A stretch of DNA of 34,512 bases. Origin: Thermodesulfobacteriaceae bacterium. Lineage in GTDB: Bacteria; Desulfobacterota; Thermodesulfobacteria; Thermodesulfobacteriales; Thermodesulfatatoraceae. The stretch is from assembly GCA_015494065.1 (NCBI GenBank), contig WGCA01000022.1, positions 1 through 34,512 of the forward strand, written 5' to 3'. Positions 152 through 3,214 of this stretch are shown here, in pieces; position 1 is the first letter of the stretch, and each line of letters opens with the position of its first letter. Made by a program: the position numbers and the translations under genes. The notes under the pieces are model-generated. The model searched no databases, was not told the origin of the DNA, and saw only the letters and a list, made by a program, of their open reading frames with translations.

Positions 152-688
152 TTAGACCTTTAAATCTACCTTTTGTCCGGTATTCTCTTCGGGGGATTTT
201 TGGTAAGGGTTTGTTTTCTTGCCGGTTCCCTGGTTTTTCAATCTCTGTTTTATGATTTCCATAAGGGCCTTTTGGGCCATTTGGTCAGCCTTAGCGGCAA
301 CTCTTAAGTCTTGGGCAGAGGGGTGCAAGGGGGCTAAAGCCGCCCTCTTTATTCTCCGGGCCTTCTCTAGGGTTTTTTCCGGGTCCCGGGGTATGGGGCT
401 AGTGTCAATCTTAACCTCTCCTGCTACGGCGTATTGTCTGCCGTCTGGCCCTTTTATCGTCTTAAGGGACATTGTTCGAGCATAAGGCCCTGCCGCCAGG
501 AGATGAGCCCTTTCATGGGCCCTTACCTCACGGTCTCTGGCCTTTAGTTCCTGAAGGAGCTTCTTTGCGGCCAGTTCTTGGGGAAGATTATAAAGGTTCT
601 TTTTCGCTTGGCTTGGCTCCCCGCTTTTTGCCCTGTAAGGACCAAGGTTCCAAGAGGTGTTATTTATTAATCGTAAAAGATTTCCCAT
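152..688 (-). CDS. SprA-like putative metalloprotease (HExxH protein)
   Basis: Protein of 178 aa from the ATG at 688; a TTG at 727 is an alternative, giving 191 aa. The central part resembles the SprA-related putative metalloprotease family: a charged helix (LKARDREVRAHERAH) with an HExxH motif at residues 58-62, then GPDGR-YAVAGEV-IDTSP and a PSAQDLRVAAKADQM helix. HExxH normally binds zinc, but the family's substrate is not known. There is no obvious signal peptide, and the N-terminal ~35 residues are low in recognisable motifs. The gene converges on the 5S rRNA and diverges from prmC with less than 50 bp between starts. No good Shine-Dalgarno is seen at either start. Family assignment is by remembered motif pattern; the proteolytic role is inference. 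Confidence 0.8.
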   Translation of the reverse strand: MGNLLRLINNTSWNLGPYRAKSGEPSQAKKNLYNLPQELAAKKLLQELKARDREVRAHERAHLLAAGPYARTMSLKTIKGPDGRQYAVAGEVKIDTSPIPRDPEKTLEKARRIKRAALAPLHPSAQDLRVAAKADQMAQKALMEIIKQRLKNQGTGKKTNPYQKSPEENTGQKVDLKV

Positions 689-734
689 AATAGGGTTCCA
701 GAGGCTTTTAAATAATACAAACGCCAAGCATAGA

Positions 735-1613
735 ATGACAATTTACTTATCGGATAAAGGCTTGAAAAAGAAAAAAATTTTGCAGCAGGCAAGAAAATTT
801 CTCTTGGCCCGTGGTTTTGGTAAGGAAGAGGCAGAGAGGGAAATCCTTTTGATACTTTCCCATCTTTTAAGGTGTAGACCCCTTGAAGTCTATTTTATCC
901 CTGAGGGAAAGCTTGAAGCGGTGGAAGGGGACTTTTGGTCCCTTCTTAAAAGGCGGGCCCGAGGAATTCCCCTGGCTTACGTGCTCGGCGAGGTCGAGTT
1001 TTACGGGCGGCCCTTTAAGGTTGGTCCGGGGGTCCTTATTCCGCGTCCGGAAACAGAAATTTTGGTGGAAGTAGTCCTCCGTATCTTCAAAGAAGAGGCC
1101 AGGCTTTTAGAGCTCGGCGTAGGTTCGGGTTGTATTTCCTTAACCCTGGCGCTGGAAAATCCTCTTTTAAAAATTTTCGGGGTTGAAAAAAGCCTCAAGG
1201 CTTTACGCTACGCCCGCCTTAACCGCAAAAAGCTAGGCCTTGAAGGCCGTGTTTATTTTATTGGTGGGGACTGGTTTAGCCCCATAAAAGAAAAGCCCCT
1301 TTTCCAGGCCGTTATTAGTAACCCTCCCTATATTGCCCCGGAAGAATGGGAAGGGTTGTCCCCTGAGGTTAAATATCATGAACCACCTGAGGCCTTGCTG
1401 GCCGAAGAAGAGGGCCTTTTTTATATCGCCAATACCCTAAGGGAAGCCCCCAAATTTTTGGTACCGGGGGGCCAGGTTATTTTAGAAATAGGCTTTAATC
1501 AGAAAGATCAGGTAACTTATCTAGCTCAGAGCTTGGGTTATCAATACCGCTTCGAAAAAGATCTTTTGGGCTACGAGCGGGTCCTGGTGGCCCAAAAAGC
1601 CAACCGTAAATAA
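735..1613 (+). CDS. prmC: Peptide chain release factor N5-glutamine methyltransferase
   Basis: A 292-aa SAM-dependent methyltransferase that methylates the Gln of the GGQ motif in release factors RF1 and RF2. The N-terminal helical domain (about 1-95) is followed by the PrmC signature VGPGVLIPRPETEILVE, a SAM-binding GVGSG loop at 128-132 and the catalytic NPPY motif at 196-199, which binds the target glutamine amide. The open frame reaches further upstream to 657, but that would overlap the divergent gene and adds non-family sequence, so the ATG at 735 was chosen. The Shine-Dalgarno is weak. prfA, the usual partner, is not adjacent. The gene ends at a 320-bp non-coding gap. Confidence 0.95.
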   Translation: MTIYLSDKGLKKKKILQQARKFLLARGFGKEEAEREILLILSHLLRCRPLEVYFIPEGKLEAVEGDFWSLLKRRARGIPLAYVLGEVEFYGRPFKVGPGVLIPRPETEILVEVVLRIFKEEARLLELGVGSGCISLTLALENPLLKIFGVEKSLKALRYARLNRKKLGLEGRVYFIGGDWFSPIKEKPLFQAVISNPPYIAPEEWEGLSPEVKYHEPPEALLAEEEGLFYIANTLREAPKFLVPGGQVILEIGFNQKDQVTYLAQSLGYQYRFEKDLLGYERVLVAQKANRK

Positions 1614-1635: not shown

Positions 1636-1662
1636 AAAAATTGGGAACGGATCCCAATTTTT
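1636..1662. repeat. Palindromic element, copy 1 (perfect)
   Basis: Arms AAAAATTGGGA (1636-1646) and TCCCAATTTTT (1652-1662) are perfect 11-bp inverted repeats around the 5-bp centre ACGGA. The T run at the end of the right arm would also let it act as a weak terminator for prmC. It could equally be a dimeric protein-binding site or a REP-like element. Confidence 0.85.
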
Positions 1663-1733
1663 CGCGTAAATATCTGTAACCGTATCCAATAACGGAATTT
1701 TTTATGCTTTTTACTAGCCAGGACAGGATATCG

Positions 1734-1758
1734 AAAATTAGGAACGGATCCCAATTTT
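1734..1758. repeat. Palindromic element, copy 2
   Basis: Arms AAAATTAGGA (1734-1743) and TCCCAATTTT (1749-1758) around ACGGA. One mismatch in the left arm (A for G at 1740) compared with copy 1. The core begins 97 bp after that of copy 1. Confidence 0.85.
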
Positions 1759-1830
1759 GGGTGGTCGCAAATTCTAGGGAGAACCTTTTATTTTTGGAAA
1801 AATTGAGGTGCGATTTTTTGAGGACGTACC

Positions 1831-1856
1831 AAAAATAGGAACGGATCCCAATTTTT
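1831..1856. repeat. Palindromic element, copy 3
   Basis: Left arm AAAAATAGGA (1831-1840), centre ACGGA, right arm TCCCAATTTTT (1846-1856). The left arm is imperfect, lacking one base relative to copy 1. The core begins 97 bp after that of copy 2 and lies about 80 bp before the murA start. Confidence 0.85.
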
Positions 1857-1933: not shown

Positions 1934-3214
1934 ATGCTAGAAAATAGCTGTCTTTTTGTGGAAGGGGGGCATAAACTCTCAGGGGAAGTTACCATTTCCG
2001 GGGCCAAAAACGCGGCCCTTCCGGCGCTAGCAGCTACCTTGTTGGCCCCTGGAGAATATCAATTTTTCAACGTCCCCTGGCTTGTTGACGTCCAAACCAT
2101 GCTGGATCTCCTTTGCCGTTTGGGGGCCCAGTACGAAACTACCAACGAAGTCCTTTACGTGGATACCAGTAAAGCGCAGGACACCCTGGCCCCTTACGAA
2201 ATCGTTTCCCGGATGCGGGCTTCGGTATTGGTTCTGGGTCCGCTGCTGGCCCGGCACGGGCGTGCCCAGGTGGCTTTGCCCGGGGGCTGCCCCATCGGGA
2301 AACGACCGATTGACTTTCACCGCAAGGGCTTAGAACTGATGGGGGCCAAGATCCGCATCGAACACGGTTATATCATGGCGCGTGCCCCCAGGCGTGGTCT
2401 CTCTGGCGCCGAAATAATATTTGATTTTCCTTCAGTTACCGCCACGGAAAACCTGATGATGGCTGCGGTTTTGGCCCGTGGCCGCACGGTTATCCGTAAC
2501 GCCGCACGAGAGCCGGAAATTGTGGCCCTGGGGGCCATGCTAAAGCAAATGGGGGCCAAAATTGAAGGTCTGGGGACGGAAACCCTGATTATCGAAGGGG
2601 TAAAGGAGCTTTCTCCCACCAAGGTGAGCATAATCCCGGATCGTATCGAAGCCGGTACCTATCTCATGGCCCCGGGCATTACCGGGGGCGAGATTGTGGT
2701 GAAAAAGGCCGAACCAGCCCATTTGGAAACGGTGATCGCCACCCTTAGAGAAATTGGCCTCAAGATCGAAGTAGACGGAGACCAAATCTGGTCCCAACGA
2801 GGCAAGCAATTAAAACCAGTCAAAATCCGCACCGCCCCCTACCCGGGTTTCCCCACGGATTTGCAGGCCCAGGCCATGGCCTTATTAAGTACCGTAAAGG
2901 GCACTTCCGTAATCGTGGAAACCATATTTGAAAATCGTTTTCTCCACGTGGAAGAGTTATGCCGCCTGGGGGCCAATATTACGGTTGAGGAACGAGTGGC
3001 GATAATTCAAGGGGTTAAAAGACTTCAGGCCGCTCCGGTTAAAGCCACCGATTTGAGGGCCAGTGCCTCTTTGATCCTGGCGGCCCTGGGGGCAGAAGGG
3101 GTTACCGAGATTTCAAATATTTACCATCTCAAAAGAGGTTACGAGGCCATTTGCCAAAAATTCGGCAACCTGGGGGCCCGCATCTGGGAGGCGCCGTGTC
3201 GGAATTATCCTTAA
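1934..3214 (+). CDS. murA: UDP-N-acetylglucosamine 1-carboxyvinyltransferase
   Basis: A 426-aa enolpyruvyl transferase, the usual MurA length. It performs the first committed step of peptidoglycan synthesis in the cytosol, moving enolpyruvate from PEP to UDP-GlcNAc. Visible signatures are SGAKNAALP near the N-terminus (Lys25-Asn26, substrate binding) and PGGCPIGKRPID, whose Cys119 corresponds to the catalytic, fosfomycin-sensitive Cys115 of E. coli. PDRIEAGTY and the PGFPTDLQAQ block, also conserved, follow. The stop codon lies inside the start of holB, so the two genes overlap by 19 bp and are probably cotranscribed. The promoter is not certain; palindromic elements lie just upstream. Confidence 0.97.
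   Translation: MLENSCLFVEGGHKLSGEVTISGAKNAALPALAATLLAPGEYQFFNVPWLVDVQTMLDLLCRLGAQYETTNEVLYVDTSKAQDTLAPYEIVSRMRASVLVLGPLLARHGRAQVALPGGCPIGKRPIDFHRKGLELMGAKIRIEHGYIMARAPRRGLSGAEIIFDFPSVTATENLMMAAVLARGRTVIRNAAREPEIVALGAMLKQMGAKIEGLGTETLIIEGVKELSPTKVSIIPDRIEAGTYLMAPGITGGEIVVKKAEPAHLETVIATLREIGLKIEVDGDQIWSQRGKQLKPVKIRTAPYPGFPTDLQAQAMALLSTVKGTSVIVETIFENRFLHVEELCRLGANITVEERVAIIQGVKRLQAAPVKATDLRASASLILAALGAEGVTEISNIYHLKRGYEAICQKFGNLGARIWEAPCRNYP

Follow-up and report, generated by a model that had tools for sequence, protein, structure and literature searches.

In the 34,512-nt stretch of DNA analysed here (the window), three palindromes of 25 bp, centred at 1649, 1746 and 1843, lie between prmC (657 to 1613, plus strand; PrmC_N and methyltransferase domains) and murA (1934 to 3214, plus strand; EPSP_synthase family), and they raise the question of what kind of element is repeated at so even a pitch of 97 bp and whether it has anything to do with murA. 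Both genes are host genes that stand outside the element, and the array occupies most of the 320-bp gap between them. Read on the plus strand, copy 1 (1636 to 1662) is a perfect 11-5-11 palindrome, while copy 2 (1734 to 1758) and copy 3 (1831 to 1855) have imperfect arms around the same centre, ACGGA; the core GGAACGGATCCCAATTTT begins at 1644, 1741 and 1838, at two intervals of 97 bp each, all as the original prediction had described. A search of the window for GGAACGGATCCCAATTTT with up to three mismatches returned four matches against 0.04 expected in shuffles, the fourth being the minus-strand reading of copy 1. The view that this is no ordinary terminator also held: the terminator scan called none between 1500 and 2100, and on these zero calls an intrinsic terminator was rejected. 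An Rfam RNA was likewise rejected, as the search at E up to 1 gave zero matches over the array and only 5S rRNA and weak matches around 69 to 159.

The site had been tied to murA, and the comparison with relatives did not sustain this. In seven of them (G001, G003, G004, G005, G007, G008, and G010) the interval from prmC to murA measures −20 to 43 nt and is free of such palindromes (REPs), and a regulatory element of murA was rejected on this ground. Among the relatives compared, only the sister species G006, whose murA is 98% identical to that of the window, has an array at this place besides the window genome (G000). Its gap of 417 nt holds four REPs at distances of 97, 96, and 96 bp, exactly one REP-plus-spacer unit more than in G000, and the exact loss of one unit by REP-REP recombination fits this difference. 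The array is a lineage-specific insertion and not a conserved control element of murA; the link of the palindromes with this gene is incidental, which corrects the idea of a murA control site. Two outcomes had been named in advance as telling against the original prediction, and only half of this came about: conservation of the array ahead of murA was lacking, yet the spacing of the many genomic copies is not random. Absence of REPs at orthologous positions was also seen between other genomes. At the REP loci of G023 that were examined, the orthologous positions of G018 are REP-free, and the locus of the transposase described below is syntenic between the two and has retained its REPs. As judged from these alignments, this is the behavior of a mobile repeat. 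No clean empty site for a doublet of G023 was found in G018, where the intergenic DNA is too diverged.

The three palindromes belong to a family of REPs dispersed through the genome. In exact form, the core GGAACGGATCC is present 28 times in the window genome (2.03 Mb) and 220, 73, 48, 23, and 21 times in G005, G008, G002, G003, and G006, respectively, so that the earlier suggestion of a REP-like element proved right. In G018 (a complete chromosome of 1,763,258 bp and 58.9% GC, over the whole of which REPs were counted), G023, and G001, the core takes a second form, GGATCNGATCC, which makes the whole element an almost perfect palindrome. The contexts are mostly intergenic or at gene ends, giving a short palindrome in many dispersed, mainly intergenic copies, as in REP/RAYT systems. 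Most core matches outside Thermodesulfobacteriales were set aside as probably due to chance or coding sequence.

Several features of the surroundings were recorded alongside. Many genes stop inside a REP arm, with TAG or TAA within (T)AAAAATAG (L221, L226, L227, L228, L222, L224, and L238), and where both of two convergent genes end within REP arms, the REP doublet spans the entire intergenic region. A distance of 54 to 58 nt from REP to start codon recurs; it was rejected as a property of the element and probably reflects insertion just outside promoters (as in G023_388). The REP arrays at C5 and C27 directly adjoin CRISPR leaders (L028:10596-11050, L032:1-600, and L204), and the flank common to these two loci was dismissed as part of the element because it is the CRISPR leader. 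The REPs of G005, G008, G002, and G003 mostly come as compact, REPIN-like pairs, inverted and about 32 bp apart; this distance, frequent in G005 and G008 (L142 and L146-L152), is close to three helical turns.

A search for a RAYT-type transposase, as had been proposed, found one with the same palindrome at its own start. The window genome has two Y1 (IS200-like, HUH) transposase genes, at C54 and C33 (Y1_Tnp), for which the best NCBIfam model is the REP-associated tyrosine transposase NF047646 (REP_Tyr_transpos), with 69.4 and 67.1 bits, below the cut-off of 80; among solved structures, TnpA-REP is the nearest in sequence (4ER8; PDB match, E 0.002). The gene at C54 (L029:9434-10075, plus strand) has one REP directly before its start codon, another at its stop, and another inside the coding sequence, where it encodes the residues SKNGIRSQFLD. 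Related RAYT genes in G002, G005, G001, G018, and G023 likewise carry REPs near their ends and one within the coding sequence, so that the internal REP is conserved in six genomes (also L140, L142, L143, L144, and L145), and this type of RAYT is found together with REPs in six out of six. The REPs of the RAYT leader are separated by 97 bp in G018 and by 98 bp in G000. A TTGACA motif lies 17 nt before the TAAAAT arm of the REP at the RAYT start of G018 (L144:7745-7860), and the REP may thus supply the −10 box of the RAYT promoter. G003 and G006, which have REPs, gave no detected RAYT, and G008 gave only a Y1 gene of another type, these drafts being incomplete. A different, longer Y1 transposase with open frames of about 290 to 350 aa is present in G004 (C1, 22 matches) and G007 (6 matches), genomes with few or no REPs of this kind. 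A structure prediction for the RAYT (pLDDT 44) was left unused. With a cognate Y1/HUH gene that bears the same palindrome at its ends, the assignment of the palindromes to the REP/RAYT kind is well supported, and the RAYT-like IS200-type (HUH, Y1) transposase elsewhere in the genome is the likely driver of the family. An enzyme of this kind would be predicted to bind and cleave the REPs.

The even spacing of about nine helical turns proved to be real and to recur in other loci and genomes. In G000, many copies again lie 96 to 98 bp apart at C5, C16, C27, C54, C60, and C63. Across ten genomes, 22 pairs of cores in the same orientation are 82 to 112 bp apart, 15 of them at 96 to 98 bp, and the same genomes have none at 113 to 143 bp. 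The whole-chromosome census of G018 gave six doublets, four at exactly 97 bp; the distances are 97, 97, 97, 98, 109, 77, and 55 bp in G023 and 97, 97, 97, 86, 74, 63, and 63 bp in G001, where one of the 97-bp intervals involves a weak third REP. When orthologous and paralogous intervals were counted once, in a list curated by hand, about 23 of the 36 independent distances from REP to REP in the range of 50 to 150 bp fell at 96 to 98 bp. This preference extends over three genera, two families, and the two variants of the core. The 13 other intervals (55, 55, 63, 63, 74, 77, 86, 106, 107, 108, 109, 130, and 139 bp) differ from 97 bp by close to a whole number of steps of about 10.8 bp (p about 1e-4 once periods from 9.5 to 12 had been scanned), a small set assembled after the idea had arisen from the data. 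The closeness of these other distances to whole numbers of helical turns suggests that spacing is measured along double-stranded DNA while the two REPs face the same side of it, and this phasing is compatible with the protein binding or looping that had been put forward.

The DNA between the copies had been called unrelated, and for the two spacers of the window this is so, as spacer 1 (1663 to 1733, plus strand) and spacer 2 (1759 to 1830, plus strand) are unlike each other. Spacer 2, however, has a diverged family in other 97-bp units of its own genome, of G006, and of another genus. It is similar to spacers of C27 and C16, more distantly to those of C63 and of C54, beside the RAYT gene, and also to a 97-bp unit in G008; membership of this type, called type A, was assigned with p of at most 0.004 by a profile that left one locus out at a time. 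Spacer 1, which aligns with its ortholog in G006 over 59 matches, 11 mismatches, and 3 gap positions, does not fit the type A profile, nor do the C5 spacer and the first C16 spacer. Type A spacers common to several loci indicate that some units were copied together with their spacer. Among the ten doublets of G018, G023, and G001 (nine of 97 bp and one of 98 bp), no convincing similarity between spacers was found, and most of their REPs have only 0 to 2 mismatches. The G018 spacers have no second copy elsewhere in that genome, and capture of spacers from elsewhere in the genome was rejected because no donor was found there. Ten sampled spacers had no match in phage or plasmid collections, in which the viruses of these hosts are poorly sampled. 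A hairpin in mid-spacer was suspected and rejected, as the mean folding z-score of about −0.3 speaks for no conserved structure. Between orthologs of G000 and G006, divergence is 6% in REPs and 16% in spacers, so that REPs evolve about 2.7 times more slowly, and interval lengths have drifted by 0 to 3 bp at this spacer divergence. The outer flanks of doublets are C-rich at both ends (50% C), and CCTC, CTCC, or CCCT occurs in 21 of 30 outer flanks but in 7 of 30 inner ones. Around single REPs, the DNA is C-rich on either side. A doublet therefore resembles one REP divided in two by its spacer, or, conversely, a single REP resembles a collapsed doublet.

The observation to be explained is that REP doublets and short arrays in this order keep to one preferred pitch, 97 bp from centre to centre, across two families and two core variants and with mostly unrelated spacers. 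Had the doublets of G018 and G023 been decayed copies of one unit, the REPs would be tens of per cent apart once the spacers had become unrecognizable, and the lengths would have drifted. REPs that mostly have 0 to 2 mismatches, at distances nearly all of exactly 97 bp, instead point to doublets that arose independently at a measured distance, barring gene conversion that homogenizes the REPs. We lean towards the explanation that these are RAYT-type REPs and that a doublet arises or survives only when its two members stand at a distance measured along double-stranded DNA, most often nine turns. A protein complex, whether the RAYT itself or a partner, would bridge a resident REP and a second REP on the same helix face, and the pitch would be fixed while both lie in double-stranded DNA; the bridged distance would usually be nine turns and sometimes another whole number. 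What is made or mobilized would then be the REP doublet, two REPs with about 72 bp of variable DNA between them; recombination of one REP with another would later remove units singly, and murA expression, if affected at all, would be so as a by-product. We infer this ruler of conserved pitch, which is the interesting and unproven part of the account. It has to face the recurrence of type A spacers between loci, the score of the RAYT under the NCBIfam cut-off, the lack of a GTAG, GGAG, or CGTC tag, and the REPs of G003, G006, and G008, in whose incomplete drafts no RAYT of this type was detected. Known RAYTs work on single-stranded DNA, from which helical phasing would not be predicted. A more far-reaching version for Thermodesulfobacteriales, which we consider doubtful, is that a RAYT-type enzyme, with or without partners, puts a second REP nine turns away or places a fixed length of DNA within a REP while duplicating it, in which case constant-length unrelated spacers would keep arising, much as in CRISPR adaptation, by way of a palindrome-binding HUH transposase.

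Other explanations would do without such a measurement. The pitch may have been inherited from one ancestral REP-spacer-REP unit, perhaps that of the RAYT leader, which was copied around and in which the REPs were conserved and the spacers decayed while the length survived. We think this somewhat unlikely, though homologous type A spacers recur at several loci and reach into another genus, the RAYT leader itself contains such units, and orthologous REPs diverge less than spacers. The spacers of G018, G023, and G001 are unrelated despite nearly identical REPs at exactly 97 bp in 9 of 10 cases, and orthologous intervals already drift at 16% spacer divergence; the explanation would need strong gene conversion of REPs together with strict selection on length. 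The slower change of the REPs, the near-perfect palindromes, and the whole-turn distances would suit sites selected by the host, at which a dimeric DNA-binding protein (a regulator, a nucleoid protein, or a gyrase-like wrapper) uses palindromes nine turns apart so that only well-spaced pairs are kept. The positions, however, vary from species to species, doublets are found between convergent genes and not just upstream of genes, and no regulator bearing this site was identified, and we regard such paired host sites as improbable. Least probable of all, in our estimate very much so, is a CRISPR-like growth in which a REP takes up a piece of DNA of set length and is duplicated in the process, building direct-repeat arrays with unrelated spacers of constant size. 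Repeats mostly in the same orientation, constant spacer length, and unrelated spacers are what it would produce, and the C-rich tags, far commoner on the outer than the inner side of doublets and present on both sides of single REPs, look as if a spacer had split one REP. Against it stand very short and dispersed arrays, recurring type A spacers, the lack of any spacer match in phage and plasmid collections or of a second site in G018, and the genome's true CRISPR repeat, GTTTGCAGCCTAACTAAAAGGAATGGAAAC, which differs from the REP.

Compared with known systems, the family is closest to the REPs and RAYTs of Nunvar et al. (2010), which are short dispersed palindromes, intergenic and clustered, with a cognate Y1 transposase gene flanked by the palindrome (PMC2817692). 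Dispersal, clustering, and a Y1 gene with the palindrome at both ends are shared. In contrast, no GTAG, GGAG, or CGTC tag was found beside the palindrome in the flanks of doublets and single REPs, where a C-rich outer flank stands instead; a REP also lies inside the transposase coding sequence, and arrays keep one orientation and one exact pitch in place of BIMEs of alternating REPs. REPINs in Pseudomonas fluorescens SBW25 are doublets that favor spacings of 71 and 110 bp (Bertels and Rainey 2011; PMC3116915). A preferred distance between paired REPs is common to both, and the inverted pairs about 32 bp apart in G005, G008, G002, and G003 look like that kind, whereas the 97-bp doublets have the same orientation where the core is asymmetric and keep their pitch across genera. 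With mostly unrelated spacers and this orientation, a replicated unit is not obvious; inverted REPs replicated as a unit with conserved inner sequence were not seen, or only in part for type A units.

Head-tail REP dimers of the GTAG and CGTC families are tandem, with spacers of 20 to 100 bp, some of them differing in sequence yet similar in length (PMC3733652). The tandem order and spacers of similar length but different sequence agree, while here the flank tag is another, the length is nearly one exact value, and two to four repeats occur in two families with two core variants. RepRanger gives REP candidate counts for Thermodesulfatator and Thermosulfurimonas, and the part of that paper available does not describe this pattern (PMC12306157). 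Our doublets share same-orientation hairpins and an HUH Y1 transposase with IS200/IS605 elements but are 97-bp units without an internal transposase. In the latter elements, for which IS608 is the model, the hairpin ends have the same orientation on one strand. In CRISPR arrays, too, palindromic repeats in direct orientation alternate with spacers of uniform length and unrelated sequence; such arrays differ from the present ones, which have spacers of about 72 bp, two to four repeats at many dispersed loci, and no spacer match found. The near-exact pitch over two families, with unrelated spacers and phasing, provides a sharp quantitative handle on REPs, hints at a mechanism that sets the distance and may include a length-measuring step, and bears on how RAYTs make and move REPs and why many genomes keep them. 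In the literature searched, neither helical phasing nor so exact a REP pitch in several genera was found to be reported; the known part is that these are elements of the REP/RAYT kind, and the conserved nine-turn pitch is what appears to be new.
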